A stretch of 64,000 bases of DNA from positions 5,952,001-6,016,000 of the forward strand of contig NZ_CP018047.1 in NCBI RefSeq assembly GCF_002009175.1, in the 5' to 3' direction. Positions 9,545-22,408 of this stretch are shown piece after piece; within the stretch, counting starts at the first letter, position 1; each line of letters opens with the position of its first letter. The notes below the pieces were generated by a model, which saw only the letters and a list, made by a program, of their open reading frames with translations, had not been told where the DNA came from and did no database searches. The translations under genes were made by a program, and so were the position numbers. The stretch is from Streptomyces niveus. Its GTDB lineage: Bacteria; Actinomycetota; Actinomycetes; Streptomycetales; Streptomycetaceae.

Positions 9545-9997
9545 TTATTCCTTGGGGTGTAATCTGTTCTGCACCACGATGGAATTCAATGGCAATCCCG
9601 GTGGAAGCGCCCACTCAACGACATGAAGACCGGCCAGTTCAATCAATTCCTCAGGGACGCCCAGAAGATAGAGGGGCGTGGCTCCGTGCCGTCTCAGCCA
9701 TACAATCCGCCTGCGCTGTTCCGAAGGTTCTAATTGCGCCCACACGTCTAAAGAGACACCGGGCGGTACTCTTGTTTTTTTTCGCATGACCAAGCGGCGA
9801 ACGAGCGGCAACTCGGCAGGATCGTGGGCGAGCATGACCAGGCACCAAGCAGCCGAGGGAGAAAGTGATGGGCCGTGTGCCCGGCTTAGGCGACGAGTAC
9901 GCCACTGCTTTACCGGAGCGAGTATCCATTTTAAGATCCTCGTCACGGCCGAGCCCCATGATGTGTCGGCCGACAGGAAAACGCTACCGTGTCGCAT
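9545..9997 (-). CDS. Hypothetical protein, translationally coupled to the SLATT-like gene
   Basis: 150 aa. Its ATG overlaps the TAA stop of the upstream gene by one base (TAATG), a classical coupling arrangement. The N-terminal half is basic (LKWILAPVKQWRTRRLSRAH). The C-terminal half looks like an ordinary globular sequence (EPSEQRRRIVWLRRHGATPL, YLLGVPEELIELAGLHVVEW). I do not recognise a family. Base composition is more AT-rich than the chromosome flank, suggesting transfer. Its partnership with a SLATT-like effector suggests a regulator, antidote or second component of a conflict system, but that is inference only. Confidence 0.55.
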   Translation of the reverse strand: MRHGSVFLSADTSWGSAVTRILKWILAPVKQWRTRRLSRAHGPSLSPSAAWCLVMLAHDPAELPLVRRLVMRKKTRVPPGVSLDVWAQLEPSEQRRRIVWLRRHGATPLYLLGVPEELIELAGLHVVEWALPPGLPLNSIVVQNRLHPKE

Positions 9998-10878
9998 TAA
10001 CTGGATCGCTCGTCACCGGAGCTGGATTGCTCAAGTTGCAGCTCTCGTTTCCTCTGTTCCTCTTTGAGCCGTTCCACGAACCGAGCGAATTTGCGTAGCC
10101 GTTCAGACTCAGGCAACGGATTTTGGGGGTCACTTCCCGCATAATCGTCGAGCATGAATTGCGAGGCATTGTAGTGCTTTTCAATATCATCAGCGGTCGA
10201 TTGTAGGTTGTACCCACGTTCACGAAACTTGAAGTATCCGGTCACCCCAGCGGAGATCCCTACCAGTGCGCTGAGGGCAGATGTTGCGATAGCCAGAAAA
10301 CTCCCACTCCCCTGGTTCATGGCTGTGAGAGTGGAAGTCACAATTGAACCGCTAATGATAACCATTTGGAAGAGGTTGTGGATTCTTCGATTTTTGTTCG
10401 CGCCCCGACGATACTGTTCGATTAGATCAAGTGAAGCCTCTCGGTAAATCCGTAGACCCGAAGGGGAGTCCAAGGGTAACTCGGCGGCAGCCGTCTGACG
10501 GTCCTGTAGTGCATTTCGCAGCTCTCCACTCTTGGTGACAATCTTCTTTCGGTTGATCCATAAAATTCTCGTTAACGCAACCCAGATAATAAGGACAATT
10601 ACGAGGCCGGCCCACCTGACCATTTCCGGTTCGGAATTCCACAGGCCGACGATCACTGTGTAGCCGAGGAGAAACGTAAGGGCAACCGCGCCGGTTAGAG
10701 AAAGTAGATAAATGCGCTGGAACGTTCTGGATGCTTTTAGGTCATCGTCAATCTGGTCAAAGGCCTTGACGCGCTCCCGATATGCTTCCTGAAGGGCCCG
10801 CTCTTGCTCCTCGGAAATTGAAATCCCGCCGTTACCGAAAACCCCGCCACTCCCGGCACCGCCTGTCCCTTGCGACAT
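9997..10878 (-). CDS. SLATT/DUF4231-like two-helix membrane protein
   Basis: 293 aa from ATG 10878, which has GGGGGA just upstream; an in-frame ATG lies at 10941. Order: Gly-rich N-terminus, helix (EEQERALQEAYRERVKAFDQ), a first membrane hairpin (IYLLSLTGAVALTFLLGYTV, then VRWAGLVIVLIIWVALTRIL). The DUF4231-type core follows: YRRGANKNRRIHNLFQMVII, a second TM pair, GYFKFRERGYNLQSTADDIE, and a charged C-terminal coiled segment. SLATT proteins are predicted pore-forming effectors that accompany SMODS/SLOG nucleotide-signalling systems in phage defence. No cyclase or SLOG gene is next to it here, so the sensor, if any, is unknown. Visibly lower GC than its surroundings. Confidence 0.7.
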   Translation of the reverse strand: MSQGTGGAGSGGVFGNGGISISEEQERALQEAYRERVKAFDQIDDDLKASRTFQRIYLLSLTGAVALTFLLGYTVIVGLWNSEPEMVRWAGLVIVLIIWVALTRILWINRKKIVTKSGELRNALQDRQTAAAELPLDSPSGLRIYREASLDLIEQYRRGANKNRRIHNLFQMVIISGSIVTSTLTAMNQGSGSFLAIATSALSALVGISAGVTGYFKFRERGYNLQSTADDIEKHYNASQFMLDDYAGSDPQNPLPESERLRKFARFVERLKEEQRKRELQLEQSSSGDERSS

Positions 10879-11387
10879 GATCCCCCATTTTTCCGCCAAG
10901 GATGAACGTGGAGAGTACGGGAAGGCGTTATGGGGGCGCAATGCGGCATTGGTGGCGGTGGGAATTTTTTTGTTCAGTGATGTGATTGATGCAGTTGTGA
11001 CTTAGGGATAAATCGAATCCAGTCACCGGAAAATCGAATTGCGCCAATCGCAAGAGGAGGAAGAGGTTCACGCCCAATCCGCTCTCTTCACACATCCCGA
11101 GACGCCAGACGAGCATCTGCAACTCACCCAGTCAGTCCGCAGATCATGACAGTGGCCATCCGTGACCAGGATGCTGCGCCAGGTCAGGGGCATCAGTCAT
11201 TACCCAACATGCGCTGGTCGAACAGCGAACGCTGCGCGCTACACGACCCGGCCAGCACATACTCCTTGCCGTGGGGGCAGGTCCTGGCGCGCTGCTTCTG
11301 TTCCTCCCCTGTAGGCGCGGGACGAGGGGCCGATCAGTGCCAGGACTGACCGTTCGCATAGAGGGCGGGCCGCCGAGCCGGCCGTGG
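10879..11387. other. Intergenic DNA between the two SLATT-like loci
   Basis: About 500 bp, AT-richer near 10,950-11,050. Short open frames on both strands lack ribosome sites and recognisable domains. It presumably contains the promoter of the minus-strand gene ending at 9997, but no clear -10/-35 pair stands out. Confidence 0.5.
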
Positions 11388-11873
11388 TCACGCAGCCGAC
11401 GGCTGGCTGGCCGGGGCGGTCTGATCGGAGGGCTGGTCCAGCTGCTGCTGGCGTCGACGCTGCTCGTTGCGGTGGTCTTCGACGCATTGGGTGAACAGCT
11501 TCAGTGCCTCAGCTTCCCTGTCATCGTCGAACTCGCGGTAGGGGTAGATGCCGAGTCTGACGGCATTGGCCTCCTCCTCGATGGCGTCGGCGGTCTGCTG
11601 AAGGAAGTAGCTGCGCTCGCGGAACTTGTAATAGCCGGTGAACATCGCGGCCAACGTGATGGCCAAACTGATGACGGTCAGGGTGATGCTCTGTCAGGTC
11701 AGCTCCTTGCCCGTGTCCAGGGCTGCGATCGTGGTCATGGAGGCTGAGCCGATCATGATTAGGGTCTGCAGGCTGTTATGGATCCGCCGGTATCTGAGGC
11801 TGTCGGCCTGGGACTGCTCGATCGCGGTGGTGACTTCCTCGCGGGCGGGGCGCCTGTCTCCACTGGATAGCGT
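11388..11873 (-). pseudogene. Second SLATT/DUF4231-like gene, broken by an in-frame TGA and lacking its N-terminus
   Basis: The minus strand reads REEVTTAIEQSQADSLRYRR, IHNSLQTLIMIGSASMTTIA, then TGA (11694-11696), then QSITLTVISLAITLAAMFTG and YYKFRERSYFLQQTADAIEE to a Gln-rich tail. It aligns along its length with the intact copy (RRIHN, GYxKFRERxYxLQxTADxIE). A TAG at 11874-11876 closes the frame upstream, so the first membrane hairpin is missing. GC content is higher than in the intact copy, so it is a paralogue of separate origin rather than a recent duplicate. Confidence 0.7.
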
Positions 11874-12118: not shown

Positions 12119-12649
12119 TCAGCCCGTGACTGCCGTCACCGCGTCCAGCGCCGCAGCCCACGGATACGGCTTCTTCTCGCCAGGCTGGTTCGGCTCGAAC
12201 CCTCCGGGGCCGTACAACACCCGTACCCCGGCGCCGCGGAGCGTCTCCAACGACCGGTGGAACGCCGGATGCTGCACGTACGCCGCGTTGACACAGGGCA
12301 TCGTCACCAGCGGAATGCCCTTCCCGATACCCTCGGCGACCACCCCGACGACGAAACTCGAAGTGATCCCCAGGGCCCACGAGTTGATCGTGTTGAACGT
12401 GGCCGGCGCGACGAGGATCGCATCCGCTTTCGGCCAGACGTCCGGCTGGCCCGGCAGCTTGTACTCGGATCGCACCGGGCCGCCCGTCCGCTCCTCCAGT
12501 GCGGGCAACTGATCACCGAGCCAACGGGCGGCCGTCGGTGTCAACCCGAGACGCACATCCCAACCGCGCTCCTGCGCGCTATTCACCACGTGTGCGATGT
12601 CGAACACCGGAGGTGCCGCGCTGCCGAACAGGTACAAGGTCCTCGTCAT
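12119..12649 (-). CDS. Flavoprotein (PPC decarboxylase-like fold)
   Basis: 176 aa, typical length. It has the nucleotide-fold start LYLFGSAAPPVFDIAHVV, the flavoprotein signature region AILVAPATFNTINSWALGIT, and MPCVNAAYVQHPAFHRSLET near the substrate flap. The family binds FMN and includes phosphopantothenoylcysteine decarboxylase and peptide Cys decarboxylases; the substrate here is unknown. It is divergent from the XRE/TPR regulator at 12746. Such flavoprotein-XRE pairs recur in Streptomyces accessory regions. Confidence 0.8.
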   Translation of the reverse strand: MTRTLYLFGSAAPPVFDIAHVVNSAQERGWDVRLGLTPTAARWLGDQLPALEERTGGPVRSEYKLPGQPDVWPKADAILVAPATFNTINSWALGITSSFVVGVVAEGIGKGIPLVTMPCVNAAYVQHPAFHRSLETLRGAGVRVLYGPGGFEPNQPGEKKPYPWAAALDAVTAVTG

Positions 12650-14587: not shown

Positions 14588-15082
14588 ATGCATCCGACGC
14601 CTCTGGCACATCGCACTCCCGCTCTCCTCTCCCGGCGTTTACCGGACCGCCTCGACACGATCCGGGCGGGTGGCGAGACGGCGACTTGGAGGCGGCCGAT
14701 GAGAAATGCGCACGCTGAGATGTCGTTCGATGCCGATCCGAGGCGTGTGGAGACTGCGCGTAGGGTGACGGCGGCTGTGCTCGGAAGGGCCGGCATCAGG
14801 GACCGGGATGTGGTCGCAACGGTGCAGTTGCTGGTCAGCGAGATCGTGACCAACGCGATCGTCCACGGCAACGCCAACTCCGTCTCCTTTCGGGTCGCTT
14901 GTGACACCGCCGGTGAGGTGCTGATCGAGGTGGATGATCATTCCTCCGGCGCTCCGGAAGTGCGGGAGGCAGGTCCGGACGACGAGGGCGGACGCGGCAT
15001 GCAACTCGTCACCTTCCTCGCCCGCGACTGGGGCCGCAAAGGCACCTGCACCTGGTGCACGTTCGCCGTCGGGAGCGGCTGA
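14588..15082 (+). CDS. HATPase-domain protein (RsbW/anti-sigma-factor kinase-like)
   Basis: 164 aa from ATG 14588, with AGAGGA six bases upstream; GTG 14504 is an alternative. The N-box (LLVSEIVTNAIVHGNAN) and G1 box (VDDHSSGAPEV, then DDEGGRGMQLV) of the GHKL fold are present. A His-kinase dimerisation domain is absent. Single-domain ATPases of this type bind or phosphorylate anti-sigma antagonists, and are very numerous in Streptomyces. Its TGA overlaps the ATG of the next gene (TGATG). It is the first gene of the run of overlapping genes extending to the P-loop pseudogene. Confidence 0.8.
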   Translation: MHPTPLAHRTPALLSRRLPDRLDTIRAGGETATWRRPMRNAHAEMSFDADPRRVETARRVTAAVLGRAGIRDRDVVATVQLLVSEIVTNAIVHGNANSVSFRVACDTAGEVLIEVDDHSSGAPEVREAGPDDEGGRGMQLVTFLARDWGRKGTCTWCTFAVGSG

Positions 15083-15491
15083 TGCACTCTCCCTCCACGG
15101 TCCTCGCCGAGACCCGCCTCCCCTTACCGCCTACGACCTGGCTGCCGCCCTTCGACTCCGAGGGCCTCGCCGCATCGCCTGCCTGCTGAGTGACGTGAAG
15201 CCGTTGGAAGCGATCGTGGACGACGTAGGTGACGTACTGGCTGAACAGGATCCCCGCGAAAGCGAGTTCGGGGAAATCGCCGAGAGCCTGAGTGCCCATC
15301 TCGTACGGCTCGCCAACATCGCCATCGCCGCTGGAGACAAGGACCCCCAGGTGTACCGCCTCCTCCAGCGGGCGCACACGCTGCACGCCGAGACCCTGCC
15401 GGACGGCTCCCGCCAGGGCCTCGGGCACCTGCGGTGACTGGCCCAGGTCGTCAACGACCTGTTGGAACGGCTTGCAGAGACGAAGACGTAA
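15082..15491 (+). pseudogene. Conserved hypothetical gene with N-terminal frameshift and in-frame TGA
   Basis: ATG 15082 overlaps the previous stop, but its own frame closes after 35 codons. The protein-like sequence runs in the neighbouring frame: LTAYDLAAALRLRGPRRIAC, VKPLEAIVDDVGDVLAEQD, YRLLQRAHTLHAETLPDG, LGHLR. It meets TGA at 15435-15437 and then continues LAQVVNDLLERLAETKT to TAA at 15491. The two lesions (a shift near 15110-15125 and CGG-TGA-CTG for a likely CGG-CGA-CTG) indicate decay. An internal start giving a shorter protein cannot be excluded. Family not recognised. Confidence 0.5.
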
Positions 15492-15501
15492 AGGAAATCG
15501 C

Positions 15502-15849: not shown

Positions 15850-16133
15850 ACCGATGCCCCGGCACCGACGCCCATGGGCACGTCCACTCAACGAACTCCT
15901 CAGCAACTACGAACGCGCCATCCGCCGCATCCTCAACCCACCGGCCCCAACGTTTCGCGACAACTCAGCGCGAACTCTTCCGCCAGGTCGAAGCCATACG
16001 CGAGGACATGAACCGCGCCCGCCGAGGAATCACGGACCATCGCGAACGGCACCGAGGTGCGACCTGCCTCGCACGCCTGGCCACCGGCCGTCGGCAAGAC
16101 GAAACCCGGCCCGACTTACCACCGAGCAACTGA
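15846..16133 (+). CDS. Small hypothetical protein in the nucleotide operon
   Basis: 95 aa. ATG 15846 overlaps the previous TGA (ATGA). The N-terminal third is Ser/Thr/His-rich and unremarkable; the middle (QRELFRQVEAIREDMNRARR) is a good amphipathic helix. A neighbouring frame starting at 15854 gives a more natural N-terminus (LNELLSNYERAIRRIL), so a frameshift near 15,960 is possible. Stop TGA lies directly before the ribosome site of the thymidylate-synthase-like gene. Function unknown. Confidence 0.45.
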   Translation: MNRCPGTDAHGHVHSTNSSATTNAPSAASSTHRPQRFATTQRELFRQVEAIREDMNRARRGITDHRERHRGATCLARLATGRRQDETRPDLPPSN

Positions 16134-16143
16134 AGGAGGAGCT

Positions 16144-17169
16144 GTGTTAACTCCCTTTGCCTATTCGAACTTCGAGCATGCGTATGTAGATGTGCTCGAT
16201 CTGCTCATGGATCGGTTCGAGTACCAGAACGCGCCGCGTGGAAACGCCGCGCGCGAGCGCATCGGTCTCAGTTTTCAGATCGCCGATCCGCGTGCGCGTC
16301 TTCCGTATCTGGCCGAGCGGAAGGTCAATCCGGTCTGGCACTTCGCCGAGGCGCTCTGGTATCTCGCCGGCCGCAACGATGTGGAGATGCTGGCGTACTA
16401 CGCGCCGCATGTCCGGCAGTTCTCGCGTGACGGCCGGACGATGGGTGGCTCCGCGTACGGCTCGCGCATGTTCAACCCGGCCACGGTTGGCGACACGTCA
16501 CCGTTCGACCGGGTCCTGGAGCTGCTGCGTACGGAGCAGGACAGCAAGCGGGGCCTGCTGCCGATTTTCACGGCCGATGAGCTGGCCGTGGTCGACAACC
16601 CCGACATGTCCTGCGTGGTCGCGCTGCATCTTCTCGTCCGCGAGGGCCGACTCCACATGGTCTGCTACATGCGGGCCAACGACTGCGACCGTGGGCTGCT
16701 GTCCGACACGTTCTCCTTCACGATGATCCAGGAGTTCGCCGCCGTACAGCTCGGTCTCGAACTGGGCACCTACACCCATCACATCGGCTCGGCGCACGTC
16801 GGCGAGCGTGACGTCCCGCGCATCAGGCGAGTCCTGGCCGAGGCCGAACTGGCCACGTCACAGCGGCGGTTTCCGTTCCAGAGGATGCCTGCCGACACGT
16901 CCTTCTCAACCGTCTCCGACCTGCTCGTACACGAGGAGAGACTGCGCTCCGGGCGGGGTCGGTTACGGCCGCAGGAGATCGCGGCGCTCGGCTTCGACCC
17001 GTACTGGCAGCAGGTGCTGCTGCTCTTCGAGGTGCACCGGCAGATCCGCCACTGCCCGGCTGACCCGGTCGAGGAGAGCGTGCTGGAAGCCCTCGACCCC
17101 GGGCTTCGCTGGCTGGTGGGTCACCGCTGGCCCACGCGTATGCCGCCCGGGAAGGAAGTCGGGTCATGA
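16144..17169 (+). CDS. Thymidylate-synthase-superfamily protein, predicted cytosine-nucleotide C5 (hydroxy)methylase
   Basis: 341 aa from GTG 16144, with AAGGAGGA at 16133-16140; codon 2 is TTA (bldA-type). The ThyA fold is clear: Glu69 in HFAEALWYLAG, Lys135-Arg136 in DSKRGLLPIF (phosphate site), catalytic Cys157 in PDMSCVVALHLL, Arg177 and Asp180 in YMRANDCD, and a His in IGSAHVGERD. Two changes stand out. The His after the catalytic Cys is Val158, and the Asn that reads uracil (GLPFN in E. coli ThyA, Asn177) is Asp188 in GLLSD. Asn-to-Asp at this position is characteristic of dCMP/CMP hydroxymethylases, so cytosine nucleotide is the predicted substrate. It is followed by an NDP-kinase-like gene through an ATGA overlap. 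Confidence 0.8.
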   Translation: MLTPFAYSNFEHAYVDVLDLLMDRFEYQNAPRGNAARERIGLSFQIADPRARLPYLAERKVNPVWHFAEALWYLAGRNDVEMLAYYAPHVRQFSRDGRTMGGSAYGSRMFNPATVGDTSPFDRVLELLRTEQDSKRGLLPIFTADELAVVDNPDMSCVVALHLLVREGRLHMVCYMRANDCDRGLLSDTFSFTMIQEFAAVQLGLELGTYTHHIGSAHVGERDVPRIRRVLAEAELATSQRRFPFQRMPADTSFSTVSDLLVHEERLRSGRGRLRPQEIAALGFDPYWQQVLLLFEVHRQIRHCPADPVEESVLEALDPGLRWLVGHRWPTRMPPGKEVGS

Positions 17170-17777
17170 CGATGCCCGGTAAGCCGTCCTGGAGCGGCGG
17201 TGTTGTCGACGGCGTCGACTGGGAACGGTGGACGGTGATTCTCTGCAAGCCGGACTGCGTGGCAACCGGGCTCACCGACCGGGTTCTTGAGCGGATCGCC
17301 GCCTGCGGTGTCACCGTCCTCGGCCGGCTCGACCTGACCGCGAGGGCGTGGCAGGCCCACGTGCACTACTGGGATCTGTTGGTGGATGCCGACTGGTTCA
17401 CCGGCCGTGACATTCCCACCGCGCTCGACACCCTGTACGCGGACAAGCCGGTGACCGTCGCCCTCGCCCACGGTGATGCCGGTATCCACAGCAGGGTGCG
17501 GGACCTGCTCGGTCACTTCGACCCCACGCAGGCCGCCAAGGGAACCATCCGCGGGGACCTCGGCCGCGACAGCCTGGAGGCGGCGCTCGCCGGCGGCCGG
17601 CTGGTGAACAACCTCGTGCACACCTCGGACGACCCCGACGCCGCGCGCCGTGACTTCGGCACCTGGTACGGCGCCCGCCGCCGGGGGCTGCTCACCCCGC
17701 CGGACCACCGCCCGCCGCACCAGCGTGCGGCAGCCGAGCACCCGCTCCGCCACACCCCCGACTGGAGGTCCACATGA
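17166..17777 (+). CDS. Nucleoside-diphosphate-kinase-like protein
   Basis: 203 aa; ATG 17166 overlaps the previous stop. NDPK features: Lys28 in TVILCKPDCV, TIRGDLGRDS (residues 127-136, like TIRGDFxID), and the phospho-acceptor His152 in NNLVHTSDD followed by DAARRDFGTWYG. It is longer than housekeeping NDPK (about 137 aa), with an insert around residues 60-110 and a basic Pro-rich tail. The family moves the gamma phosphate from ATP to NDPs. In this operon it would supply the triphosphate of the modified nucleotide; that role is inference. Confidence 0.8.
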   Translation: MTMPGKPSWSGGVVDGVDWERWTVILCKPDCVATGLTDRVLERIAACGVTVLGRLDLTARAWQAHVHYWDLLVDADWFTGRDIPTALDTLYADKPVTVALAHGDAGIHSRVRDLLGHFDPTQAAKGTIRGDLGRDSLEAALAGGRLVNNLVHTSDDPDAARRDFGTWYGARRRGLLTPPDHRPPHQRAAAEHPLRHTPDWRST

Positions 17778-18952
17778 CCACTCCCGCTGCCCCGTTACGC
17801 CGCGCTCTGGCCATCCTGTCCACCGAGAAGATCGGCGGACTCAAGCCGGAACTCGCCGACGTGATCGAGTACCGCAAGTCGGGGCTGTCGCTGAACTGGA
17901 TCGTCGGCTGCCCGCTGGAATGCGGGTACTGCGTCCGGCACCTCTTCGACAACTTCGAGATGAAGGCTCCCCGGCGCCTCATGTCGGACGAGGAGGCCGC
18001 CGCCCGCCTCGTGGGGCACCCGTACTTCCGGCCGCACAAGACGCCCGTCCAGCTCCTGAACCGGGCCACGGACCCCATGCTCCCCGTCGTCAAGCCGCAC
18101 GTGTTCAACGTGCTGCGGGCACTGGACGAACAGGGCCTGACCAACCACGTCCTGATCATCACCCGGTGGCGCGTGACGCCCGAGGACTGCGCGATCCTCA
18201 ACAGCTTCACCCACCTGCGCCTGACCATCCTCGTCACCCACTCCAACATCGCCAACCCCGCGATCGAACCCGTCGACTCGACCATCGCCGCGCGCAGCCT
18301 GCGCACCCTGTACGAGCACGCCGAGCGCTACCGCACCGTCCTGTACTGGCGTCCGATCGTGCCCGGCCTCAACGACTCCGCCGCCGACATCGAACGGGCA
18401 CGGGAGTTGTCCCGGCACGCGCACGCGACCGTCTTCACCGGACTGTTCTTCCGCGAGGAGATCGCCTCCTACTACCAGGCGCACGGGCTGCCGATGCCCT
18501 ACGACGAGACGGCGCGGCGGAAGATCATGCCCGAGGTCTCCGAGCAGCGGATCCTCGACGCCTTCCAACAGGACGGCACGTGGGGGGCGTTGTTCCGCAA
18601 GACGAGCTGCGGGGTCGCGTACGCGCACGGAGAGGCCGACTACAACGGTCACTTCGGTGTCCGGGAGTTGTGCGACATCTGCCCCGAGGACCAGATCGCA
18701 CGATGCCAGGCGGCCTGGGTCAAGCCGGATCCGGTCACCGTCACGGCCGAAGCCCGAGCACTCGGTGCGACCGGTGTGGTGGAGGTCAACGACCGTGCCA
18801 TCGTCGTGGAGGGACTGGACGAGCCGCCGCGCTACTTCCTCCAGCACGGCTTCGGCTACCAGTGCCACGACCGCACCAAGCCCCATCACCACCGCCAGCA
18901 CGGCCGGGCCCCCATCGGCTGGACGGCGGAGAACGGACCCACCCCCGCATGA
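17774..18952 (+). CDS. Radical SAM enzyme with extra C-terminal Cys cluster (spore-photoproduct-lyase-like)
   Basis: 392 aa; ATG 17774 in an ATGA overlap. The radical SAM motif CX3CX2C is Cys46, Cys50 and Cys53 (VGCPLECGYCVRH). The barrel continues through LLNRATDPMLPVVKPHV, VLIITRWRVTPEDC and VLYWRPIVPGLND. Late cysteines Cys279 (KTSCGVAYAHG), Cys300, Cys303 and Cys311 (LCDICPEDQIARC) could ligate an auxiliary cluster. The arrangement recalls SPL-type proteins but lacks clear identity with known DNA-repair members. Beside a TS-like enzyme and an NDPK it is a good candidate to modify the base or sugar further. Substrate unknown. Confidence 0.8.
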   Translation: MTTPAAPLRRALAILSTEKIGGLKPELADVIEYRKSGLSLNWIVGCPLECGYCVRHLFDNFEMKAPRRLMSDEEAAARLVGHPYFRPHKTPVQLLNRATDPMLPVVKPHVFNVLRALDEQGLTNHVLIITRWRVTPEDCAILNSFTHLRLTILVTHSNIANPAIEPVDSTIAARSLRTLYEHAERYRTVLYWRPIVPGLNDSAADIERARELSRHAHATVFTGLFFREEIASYYQAHGLPMPYDETARRKIMPEVSEQRILDAFQQDGTWGALFRKTSCGVAYAHGEADYNGHFGVRELCDICPEDQIARCQAAWVKPDPVTVTAEARALGATGVVEVNDRAIVVEGLDEPPRYFLQHGFGYQCHDRTKPHHHRQHGRAPIGWTAENGPTPA

Positions 18953-19551
18953 ACTTCTCCTCCTGGCCCCCGCTGCTCGTGGTCGACGTCGAAGGCAACG
19001 GCGCCAACCCGCCCGACCTCGTGGAGGTCGCCGCCCTCCCCGTACGCGAGGGACGGCCGGACACCAGCGTGGCCGGGGCATGGCTGACCAAGCCCAGGCA
19101 CCCTGTGACCCCGTTCGCCGCCCGCGTCCACGGTCTGACGAACGAGCGCCTGGAAAGCGAGCCGGGCTGGGAGGAGATCGCCGACCAGGTCCACACGCTC
19201 ATGGGCACCTCGTGGATCTGCGCGCACAACGCACATGTGGACCACCGGGTGCTGTCCGCGCACCTCCCGACGTGGCGGCCGGCCGGAGTTCTGGACACCC
19301 TCCGCCTCGCCAAGGCCACCCGTCCCGGCCTGCCCAAGTACGCCCTCGACGCCCTGATCGAGCACCTTCGTCCGGACCTGAGCGCGGCGCCCGCACACCG
19401 GCACCGCGCGACGTTCGACGCCTACGCCACCGCCCAGCTCCTGATCCTCATGGCCGACCACTACGACACCTGGGACCAGCTCGTTGCCGCGGCCGTGCCA
19501 CCGGGCCTGCCCGGAGCCCCCGAACCAGAAAAGGACCCCACCCTGTGGTGA
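18949..19551 (+). CDS. DEDDh 3'-5' exonuclease (DnaQ-like)
   Basis: 200 aa; ATG 18949 overlaps the previous stop. Exonuclease motifs: Asp13-x-Glu15 in LLVVDVEGNG, Asp98 in AHNAHVDHRVL, and His152-x4-Asp157 in HRATFDAYATAQ, i.e. a complete DEDDh set. Helical motif KATRPGLPKYALDALI is as in RNase T/PolIII-epsilon relatives. Stand-alone proteins of this type degrade or proofread oligonucleotides. Here it may remove unmodified ends, salvage nucleotides, or act as an effector of a conflict system. It is coupled to the P-loop gene by GTGA. Confidence 0.82.
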   Translation: MNFSSWPPLLVVDVEGNGANPPDLVEVAALPVREGRPDTSVAGAWLTKPRHPVTPFAARVHGLTNERLESEPGWEEIADQVHTLMGTSWICAHNAHVDHRVLSAHLPTWRPAGVLDTLRLAKATRPGLPKYALDALIEHLRPDLSAAPAHRHRATFDAYATAQLLILMADHYDTWDQLVAAAVPPGLPGAPEPEKDPTLW

Positions 19552-20067
19552 CCACCCCTCAGCCCATCCGCATCGGCATCATGGGCACCCACTCCACCGG
19601 CAAGACCACACTCCTCAAACGTATCGAGATGGACTGCGCGCCCACGGAATCCCCGTAGCCCGCACCGGCCGACTCGGGAAACGAGCCGCACTCGCCGGCC
19701 TGCCCAAGATGCAGCACCACACCGCCGCCTCCACCGAATGGATCATCACCCAAGGCATCGCCGACGAAATCGCCGCCACTTGCCCCGCCCCTGAACCGAT
19801 CCAGATGGTCCTCGCGGACTGCGCGGTCTAGGACGCCCTCGCCTACTTCCACGCCGCCCAGCAATGGCGCCATGAAACCCCCGACCCGCTGGAGCGGGAA
19901 CGCCTACGCTTTCTCGACTCCACCCAGACGCCGAAGTACCACCTGCTCCTCGCCCCAGTCCTCGACCCGGCACTACCCTCGAGAACAAGCACGACTACGA
20001 CGCCTGCTACCGCACGTTGGTCAACCACCACCCCCAACGCCCGCAGCGCAGTCGCCCGCAGCCATAG
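19548..20067 (+). pseudogene. P-loop nucleotide-kinase-like (AAA) gene with two frameshifts and an amber stop
   Basis: A GTG at 19548 (GTGA overlap) opens IRIGIMGTHSTGKTTLL, a clean Walker A. Near 19628-19640 homology jumps frame to RAHGIPVARTGRLGKRAALA and TEWIITQGIADEIAATCPAP to LADCAV. An in-frame TAG (19829-19831) follows, then DALAYFHAAQQWRHETPDPL and KYHLLLAPVLDPALP, then another shift near 19,975-19,985 to ENKHDYDACYRTLVNHH and a stop at 20067. The corrected protein (about 170 aa) resembles NadR/thymidylate-kinase-like AAA_28 ATPases. It would be the natural NMP kinase of the operon, and it is the only operon gene with three lesions. Confidence 0.65.
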
Positions 20068-21151: not shown

Positions 21152-22408
21152 ATGAACAACGCGATTCAGCTGATCAGTGACGGTGATGGGCTGACAGTCA
21201 TCGGGAATGCGACGGATGTCTCAGACTTCCTTGTATCGGAGGAGCTGCCGTCGAAGGACCTCGGACCGCGATGGCTCAAGTCCTTCTTAGGTACAGGAGC
21301 CGCAGTCGCGCAGGCAGGTTCGGAGTTTGCCACCAACTCCGCTCACTGGGTGAAGCTGACCCCGAAGTCGGCACGGCTTTTCAAGAAGTACGGGCTGAGA
21401 GAAAGCTCGAAGACCGGACTGAGCACAGGTGTGCTGAAGGGCCACAAGGGCCAGATCAAGGGTTTCGTTGAATTCGCGAAAGCTCCCCGCTCGTTTCTGA
21501 CCAACCCGGCGAATCTTGCGAATGCTGGGAGATTCATGGCGCAGGTTGCGATGCAACAGACCATGGACGAGATCACCGACTATCTGGCAGAGATCGACAA
21601 GAAGGTCGACGACATACTTCGCGCCCAGAAGGACACTCTGCTGGTCCGCACGATCGGGCTGGGTTTCGTCATCGAGGAGGCCATGACCATCCGAAAGACA
21701 AGAGGGAGGGTAGACGAGATTACGTGGTCGAAGGTGCAGGCCGCGCCTGCGACCATCGCAGAAACCCAGGCGTACGCATTGCGCCAACTTGACGCAATTG
21801 CGGAGAAGATGGAGCACAGGGCCAAGATCGGCGATCTCGCTACGGCGGCCAAGGAAGCCGAGTCCACGGTTCGGGAGTGGCTCGCTGTTCTGGCTCGTAG
21901 CTTCCAACTGCAGGACGCGATCGCCGTGCTCGAACTCGACCGGGTGCTGGACGCGTCTCCGGAGGAACTGAACGGCCATCGCCTCGGGCTGAAGGCCGCC
22001 CGGCAGACTCGGTTGGAACACATCTTGCGGACCACCGAGCGTCTGGTGGCCAGGATGAATGCAGCGGCTGGCACGGCCAACGCGAAGGTTTTGCTGCACC
22101 CGAGCACGTCCCCGGCTGTGGTCCAGTCGAGCAACCATGTTGCGACCGGTGTCCATGAATTCCACGGGCGGCTCGGAATTGAGTCTGGTCGGCAGTCATC
22201 GGAGGCGAGACGATGGGCGGAAGCGGCCGCAGAGGTGAAGGACAAGGCGCTCGAGACAGGAGCAAAGGGCGTTGGCGCCGCCAGAAGCTTCGGCAGTGAG
22301 ACTCTGGACCGGGCCAGCTCAGTGAAGGGCAAGCTCTCCAGTGGGATCGTCGAGCGAGCGCGCCGTAGGCGCGGGGACGAGAAGGAACGCGTAAAGGAGA
22401 CTGAGTGA
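21152..22408 (+). CDS. Large helical protein of unknown function
   Basis: 418 aa; ATG 21152 with AGGAG six bases upstream. N-terminal ~60 residues are beta-like (NAIQLISDGDGLTVIGNAT; WLKSFLGTGAAVAQAGSEF). The long middle is helical (MAQVAMQQTMDEITDYLAEI, DKKVDDILRAQKDTLLVRTI) with coiled-coil character. The tail is Lys/Arg/Glu-rich and disordered (IVERARRRRGDEKERVKETE). No transmembrane helix or catalytic motif is evident. Composition is lower in GC than core genes. Possibly the partner of the upstream Cys-rich protein. Confidence 0.65.
   Translation: MNNAIQLISDGDGLTVIGNATDVSDFLVSEELPSKDLGPRWLKSFLGTGAAVAQAGSEFATNSAHWVKLTPKSARLFKKYGLRESSKTGLSTGVLKGHKGQIKGFVEFAKAPRSFLTNPANLANAGRFMAQVAMQQTMDEITDYLAEIDKKVDDILRAQKDTLLVRTIGLGFVIEEAMTIRKTRGRVDEITWSKVQAAPATIAETQAYALRQLDAIAEKMEHRAKIGDLATAAKEAESTVREWLAVLARSFQLQDAIAVLELDRVLDASPEELNGHRLGLKAARQTRLEHILRTTERLVARMNAAAGTANAKVLLHPSTSPAVVQSSNHVATGVHEFHGRLGIESGRQSSEARRWAEAAAEVKDKALETGAKGVGAARSFGSETLDRASSVKGKLSSGIVERARRRRGDEKERVKETE

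Follow-up and report, generated by a model that had tools for sequence, protein, structure and literature searches.

A mobile radical SAM operon in Streptomyces niveus with a MilA-like cytidylate hydroxymethylase: a candidate nucleotide-analogue system

The window analysed here is a stretch of 64,000 nucleotides from Streptomyces niveus (contig NZ_CP018047.1, positions 5,952,001 to 6,016,000) whose plus strand carries, head to tail between 16144 and 20031, an operon of five genes, of which four are intact and the last is broken. In order, the intact genes encode a thymidylate synthase (TS) homologue of 341 amino acids (16144..17169), which starts with a GTG codon preceded by AAGGAGG, a nucleoside diphosphate kinase (NDPK) homologue of 203 amino acids (17166..17777), a radical S-adenosylmethionine (SAM) enzyme of 392 amino acids (17774..18952) and a DEDDh 3′-5′ exonuclease of 200 amino acids (18949..19551). 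Each gene overlaps the next by 4 bp (17166-17169, 17774-17777, 18949-18952 and 19548-19551). An initial annotation had counted five genes joined by four such overlaps; all the overlaps and four of the genes stand, but the fifth, a P-loop nucleotide-kinase-like gene (19548..20031), is broken in this copy. A Walker A motif follows the start at 19548 and the frame stops after 36 codons; compared with L045, a second copy in this genome that is intact, and with S. camponoticapitis, the gene has two one-base frameshifts and its homology ends at 20031, so that the 3′ end is missing. The fifth gene is also intact in many relatives, one of which (L041) matches AAA_28 at 30 bits (cut-off 27), and a PDB sequence search with the kinase gave no lead. 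Whether the kinase is provided in trans by the copy at 3572 kb can only be guessed.

The TS homologue scores 64.3 bits against PF00303 (cut-off 24.3), and the solved structures closest to it are those of a cytidine monophosphate (CMP) 5-hydroxymethylase (5jnh, E 5.4e-76; 5b6d, E 1.5e-75), followed by ordinary TS at 4.1e-13. Identity with MilA is 42% over the aligned MilA stretch, and E69, K135-R136, C157, R177, A178, D180, D188 and H218 all stand in register with that enzyme. This set includes every residue that had been singled out beforehand (Glu69, Lys135-Arg136, Cys157, Arg177, Asp180 and a late His), together with Asp188, which had been taken to read cytosine. In the portion of the MilA study used here, Asp186 marks cytosine substrates and the preference for ribose comes from Lys133 and Ala176, the A176S/K133R double mutant favouring deoxycytidine monophosphate (dCMP) (PMC5175136). 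The corresponding residues D188, K135 and A178 are each kept in 120/120 relatives (residue counts were made on the best 120 of 437), and Asp rather than Asn thus occupies the base-recognition position throughout. Sequence comparison supports a MilA-like cytidylate hydroxymethylase, as the earlier CMP/dCMP-hydroxymethylase reading had it, and because D188 and K135/A178 are present the predicted substrate is CMP or a derivative, with the ribonucleotide favoured over dCMP.

The sugar contacts add a further detail. The same portion of the MilA study has the 2′-OH of CMP bound by His216 and Tyr218, and calls Tyr218 extremely conserved across MilA, BcmA, T4 dCMP hydroxymethylase, SPO1 dUMP hydroxymethylase and E. 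coli TS (PMC5175136). The His216 equivalent, H218, is kept in all 120 relatives, while the Tyr218 position is G220 in S. niveus and holds Tyr in none of them (N 69, G 36, C 13, R 1, A 1). Since the His is kept but the Tyr is missing, we class the protein as a member of a MilA-like sister group and not as MilA. That the Lys, Ala and Asp are retained while Tyr218 is lost in the 120 closest relatives suggests that the true substrate may be a sugar-altered cytidylate, perhaps the product of the radical SAM enzyme, and makes the lost tyrosine a sharp clue to what the enzyme really uses. Ordinary synthesis of deoxythymidine monophosphate (dTMP) was rejected as a function: besides the MilA-like residues, the genome encodes a flavin-dependent ThyX at 1964 kb, which makes the TS homologue dispensable for dTMP.

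A third, distant TS homologue (36%) is encoded in the same genome (G000:C1:3612517-3613095, in L027/L046), roughly 38 kb away from the second operon and near genes that read as a HAD phosphatase, an epimerase, a methyltransferase and a small P-loop protein. TS matches of 36-38% also occur in 11 other Streptomyces genomes, and this locus is possibly a separate nucleoside pathway.

The NDPK homologue matches PF00334 at 58.5 bits (cut-off 27), several of its relatives carrying two NDK domains, and the exonuclease matches PF00929 (RNase_T) at 55.9 bits (cut-off 24) and the PADLOC DEDDh family with an E value of 1.6e-26. In the radical SAM enzyme the CxxxCxxC motif (C46/C50/C53) is invariant in 135 aligned sequences and so is a second set, C279/C300/C303/C311, in line with the extra cysteines reported for it earlier. 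The window protein has no Pfam match, and its relative L083 reaches 20.3 bits against a PF04055 cut-off of 29.5. An AlphaFold2 model (predicted local distance difference test score, pLDDT, 86.5) has a barrel that appears to resemble spore photoproduct lyase (SPL) and pyruvate formate-lyase activating enzyme (PFL-AE) in a fold comparison that barely covered the C-terminal part. Membership of the viperin/pVip group was rejected on the PADLOC search, in which the protein matched no family at E<=1.

These genes travel together. We mapped 63 entries, some of which are one and the same genome under two handles (e.g. L036/L079 and L039/L076) and near-identical plasmids (L118/L130/L132 and L127/L128). 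The order TS-NDPK-radical SAM is found in 33/33 TS-bearing entries, with a partial radical SAM gene in L088 and the TS in two pieces in L143; L136, which holds a 34-residue TS scrap on the opposite strand, was counted as lacking TS. The DEDDh gene is present in 32 of these 33 and in 58 of all 63 entries, and 49 of the 63 have the nucleotide kinase, whole or in part; the partial or broken kinase or aldo/keto reductase matches are those in the window, L134, L137 and L140. Among 295 Streptomyces genomes, 11 have a near-full-length TS (at least 55% identity) and 25 have radical SAM matches, of which 15 are nearly full-length at 54% or above, 8 are fragments only and 2 are distant. All 11 TS-bearing genomes have a radical SAM match, against 14/284 of the others (p 1.5e-13, uncorrected for phylogeny); for near-full-length radical SAM genes the figures are 10/11 and 5/284 (p 2.8e-14, likewise uncorrected). 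The co-occurrence in other genomes on which the initial annotation depended is well above chance. Radical SAM matches were found in 21/394 genomes of the class, S. niveus itself included, and in 40 plasmid records, 32 of them covering at least 80% of the query. Four IMG/VR contigs (L114-L117), which may be phages, plasmids or integrative elements, carry TS, NDPK, radical SAM, DEDDh, kinase and aldo/keto reductase genes. A phage origin of the operon was rejected: none of 50,697 phage records gave a radical SAM match, and the phage relatives of the TS protein of L122 (S. alboflavus) show 29-36% identity among the 12 listed of 471, a single one of the 471 covering at least 80% of the query. In the literature searched, mostly without subscription papers, no description of the operon was found. 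Streptomyces sp. ML694-90F3 (record P0204), which we take to be the incednine maker, was a lead that went nowhere.

In Alphaproteobacteria and other Actinobacteria the radical SAM, DEDDh and nucleotide kinase genes occur without TS and NDPK, and it is these three that form the conserved centre. Since this core exists on its own, cytosine modification is one branch of the system and not its whole function. The proposal that the operon makes a C5-modified cytidine thus stands for the MilA-like branch only, so that the gene-level observations of the initial annotation are partly confirmed and its interpretation is partly supported. The same distribution bears on the idea that the operon serves to install a hypermodified base in host DNA or RNA, as a self/non-self mark or an RNA modification, with 5-hydroxymethylcytidine triphosphate being built in and the exonuclease acting as editor. 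The pyrimidine hydroxymethylases of phages can be recognised as relatives, and phages make modified deoxynucleoside triphosphates with a TS-type hydroxymethylase, a nucleoside monophosphate (NMP) kinase and an NDPK. However, K135 and A178 speak for CMP, a ribonucleotide, we saw neither a dedicated polymerase nor a restriction partner among the cassette genes, the alphaproteobacterial core without TS and NDPK would be left unexplained and nothing speaks for this idea specifically; we consider it unlikely.

The operon appears to be mobile. The second operon of S. niveus (L045, G000:C1:3572626-3575422), with its intact kinase, has 90-91% identity to the window copy in TS and 98% in the radical SAM gene, and it adjoins genes that we read as relaxase and MobC genes. 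At the nucleotide level the cassette 16133..20031 (plus strand) shows 93% identity with L045 and with S. camponoticapitis L041, and blastn identity is confined to 16133/16131-20031, with no match beyond in the flanks compared; the operon thus appears to be transferred as a whole between differing surroundings. Between the two S. niveus copies the ratio of nonsynonymous to synonymous divergence (dN/dS) of the four intact genes is 0.14-0.19, and over three pairwise comparisons it is 0.14-0.23, so these genes are under purifying selection. Because dS between the two copies is far lower in the radical SAM gene (0.046) than in its neighbours (0.16-0.28), recombination or gene conversion at the radical SAM gene is suggested. 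In L045 we also noted a gene for a protein that we read as YfbR-like with an HD domain (18103-18705), the same cluster lying near the operon in 6 loci.

We also examined the surroundings of the alphaproteobacterial relatives. An HD protein is encoded directly downstream in Sinorhizobium, Rhizobium and Labrenzia plasmids (L118, L125, L127, L128, L129 and L132), that is in 6/10 alphaproteobacterial entries read, or 4/7 without duplicates. With the L118 protein as query, 2o6i, an HD domain protein, ranks first among solved structures (E 3.7e-44) and SAMHD1 comes further down (from 1.3e-19); no member of this HD family was seen in the window or among the actinobacterial entries of the 63 mapped. 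For a test of defence association we took the seven non-duplicate contexts among ten annotated regions read, of 17 alphaproteobacterial records; L128, L130 and L132 were excluded because they duplicate other contexts, and those from Nostoc and Nocardia did not enter the test. The 75 neighbour proteins came from windows of 17-19 kb, and the 106 control proteins from seven 19-kb windows about half a plasmid away, the core genes, the adjacent HD genes, coding sequences cut by a window edge and some small or transposase coding sequences being omitted. PADLOC matches were compared as the first 25 families listed of 210 for the test and the first 25 of 81 for the controls; the family models overlap, so that these totals are not counts of systems, and the matching member is not named. 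The families listed for the test neighbours include GajA (4.6e-242), GajB (1.8e-225), CBASS E1-E2, cyclase, CapP and phospholipase effector, and further dGTPase, Shedu SduA, LmuB and ThsB, while those listed for the controls include AbiEi, SoFic, AriA, PDC-M02, mad3 and mad8, with a lowest E value of 5e-142 for the candidate family PDC-M02B. By annotation, an established anti-phage system is present in 4/7 test windows (a dGTPase, a CBASS and Shedu twice) and in 0/7 controls, in which one window has an AbiEi antitoxin domain protein and another a RelE/ParE toxin and a Fic protein. This comparative evidence points to defence for the alphaproteobacterial relatives, several of which appear to sit in defence islands. 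Just past the S. meliloti operon and its HD gene lie a three-Cys-motif partner protein (TcmP) and a DUF5131 protein (L125:11805-13949), which may be another unexplained pair.

From the gene content, residues, conservation and mobility described above, and from the apparent defence-island setting of several alphaproteobacterial relatives, we propose a mobile nucleotide-analogue system. In this model the radical SAM enzyme would alter a nucleotide. Judged by their families, the NMP-kinase-like protein and NDPK would phosphorylate it as far as the triphosphate, which would then be misused by polymerases, either those of a phage that invades the cell or those of a competitor. The exonuclease would then strip the analogue from the 3′ ends of the producer itself and so provide self-immunity; as a precedent, the nsp14 exonuclease of coronaviruses removes ddhCMP, the chain terminator of viperin (PMC9415739). 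In Streptomyces and relatives a CMP-type hydroxymethylase and NDPK are added, and C5 hydroxymethylation would act on the sugar-altered cytidylate that the radical SAM enzyme would make; because of these added enzymes the actinobacterial product is probably a 5-hydroxymethyl-cytidine-type analogue. We favour this proposal tentatively, as a reading that falls slightly short of an even chance, and it is conjectural in each radical SAM step, in the order of events, in the triphosphate as final product and in what is targeted. A more specific version seems doubtful, though worth stating: a form of immunity that has not been described before and is separate from that of viperin. Here a radical SAM enzyme carrying a second cluster, of four cysteines, would make a sugar-altered nucleotide that receives a C5 mark from the cytidylate hydroxymethylase in Actinobacteria and becomes a triphosphate terminator, with a dedicated proofreading exonuclease, and in rhizobia a SAMHD1-like protein, sparing the host; poison and antidote would be paired at the polymerase. 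The sulphur for the sugar change might perhaps be drawn from the second cluster, sacrificed in the way that has been proposed for albomycin.

Several observations weigh against the nucleotide-analogue proposal. The kinase is broken in the window, the annotation of the remaining 3/7 test windows gives toxin-antitoxin genes or a single N-6 DNA methylase and no established anti-phage system, and the distant TS of L144, from another genus group, has Gly instead of Ala at the ribose position. A TS without a radical SAM match occurs in G101 and G162 (partial, 55-57%) and in G317 (full-length, 45%), all three outside the 11-genome TS count. The radical SAM family gives chance-level matches only among PDB sequences, and the lack of a PADLOC match adds to this. 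Its closest folds appear to be SPL and PFL-AE, which act on DNA or protein. The C-terminal C279/C300/C303/C311 region lies outside the part aligned with SPL, and the operon context is different. We think it very improbable that the genes form a nucleic-acid repair module, in which lesions would be reversed by the radical SAM enzyme in the manner of a photolyase, with trimming by the DEDDh exonuclease and pools filled by the nucleotide enzymes. Decayed copies are common as well, the fragment-only genomes making up 8/25 of the Streptomyces with a radical SAM match, as might be expected of ordinary accessory nucleotide metabolism that rides on a mobile element and has no dedicated function. Purifying selection in all three comparisons, the strict gene order and the radical SAM-DEDDh pair kept between Actinobacteria and Alphaproteobacteria argue against such a role, to which we give very little credence.

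The Streptomyces neighbourhoods tell a different story from the rhizobial ones and also count against the proposal. Upstream of the Streptomyces copies lie helix-turn-helix, HATPase-like, DUF6415 and DUF6302 genes, with MazE7/Doc in two loci; the neighbours examined, in which no defence scan was made, look like regulator, toxin-antitoxin and plasmid genes and do not resemble a defence island. The defence option offered in the initial annotation is accordingly favoured for the alphaproteobacterial relatives but not by what surrounds the Streptomyces copies. On a plasmid of S. anthocyanicus (L131:4868-11765) a cassette of glycosyltransferase 4 (GT4), aldolase, MurA-like and radical SAM (25%) genes replaces TS, NDPK and radical SAM, next to a 70-residue C-terminal remnant of the original radical SAM enzyme, DEDDh and a kinase match, an arrangement that looks like a cassette swap. 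This cassette speaks for another explanation, a secreted nucleoside antibiotic of the mildiomycin, albomycin or thmABC type, for which the radical SAM enzyme and the TS homologue would make a modified cytidine nucleoside, the kinases would belong to the pathway and the exonuclease would confer resistance. The MilA homology fits such a product, as do the three-gene thmABC nucleoside cluster with its own resistance gene, the upstream annotation 'DUF6415 family natural product biosynthesis protein' and the aldo/keto reductase gene found downstream in 28/63 entries (one of them broken). Annotation labels, however, are no evidence of function; among the cassette genes we saw none for a phosphatase, nucleosidase, transporter or peptide ligase, an NMP kinase together with NDPK points to an intracellular triphosphate, and several alphaproteobacterial versions appear to lie in defence islands. 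A secreted antibiotic is a serious rival explanation, but we regard it as rather improbable.

Upstream of the operon in the window are accessory genes for a HATPase-like ATP-binding protein and a DUF6415-like protein (14714..15494, plus strand), identified by tblastn with annotated neighbours of L133-L135; relatives of both also lie upstream of other operon copies (tblastn), and they are possible candidate regulators. The same low-GC stretch as the operon includes, on the minus strand, a low-GC (~0.53) membrane protein gene (9997-10941), perhaps SLATT-like, beside a similar-looking fragment (11388-11666, minus strand). To the right of the operon is a low-GC open reading frame (ORF) of 418 amino acids (21152-22408, plus strand), and an ORF at 12119-12649 (minus strand) reads as a flavoprotein like phosphopantothenoylcysteine decarboxylase, with members of the same cluster near the operon in L036 and L080.

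In comparison with known systems, the TS homologue shares the catalytic Cys and Glu, the cytosine Asp and the ribose-selecting Lys and Ala with MilA and BcmA of mildiomycin and bacimethrin biosynthesis; in contrast, the Tyr218 sugar contact is gone in the 120 closest relatives, and no MilB-like N-glycosidase was seen in the cassette. The SAMHD1-like HD gene adjacent to the rhizobial and Labrenzia operons recalls defence by dNTP depletion of the dGTPase/SAMHD1 type, although neither the window nor the actinobacterial entries mapped yielded a member of this HD family. Nucleotide-analogue immunity is best known from viperin. The present operon differs from viperin/pVip and its CMPK2-type kinases, which yield ddhNTP, in that its radical SAM enzyme is not a viperin by sequence and has an extra four-cysteine set, and in that its operon includes an exonuclease and, in some versions, a hydroxymethylase. 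If the proposal is right, a second, sequence-unrelated radical SAM family, equipped with a kinase, a hydroxymethylase and an exonuclease of its own, would mean that bacteria have invented nucleotide-analogue immunity more than once. The system would offer new nucleotide chemistry and a directly testable principle of self-immunity, and antiviral nucleoside scaffolds could be drawn from it. The thmABC genes of Photorhabdus (radical SAM enzyme, nucleoside kinase and NTPase) make 4′-thiothymidine, and ThmC alone renders E. coli resistant, as stated in the portion of that report used here (PMC12691670). Resistance there depends on an NTPase, where we would assign it to the exonuclease, the HD protein being present only in some relatives, and TS and NDPK are not part of thm as described in that portion. 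The likeness, which is one of gene content, lies in a compact set of a radical SAM enzyme, a nucleoside kinase and a self-resistance gene amid variable neighbours.

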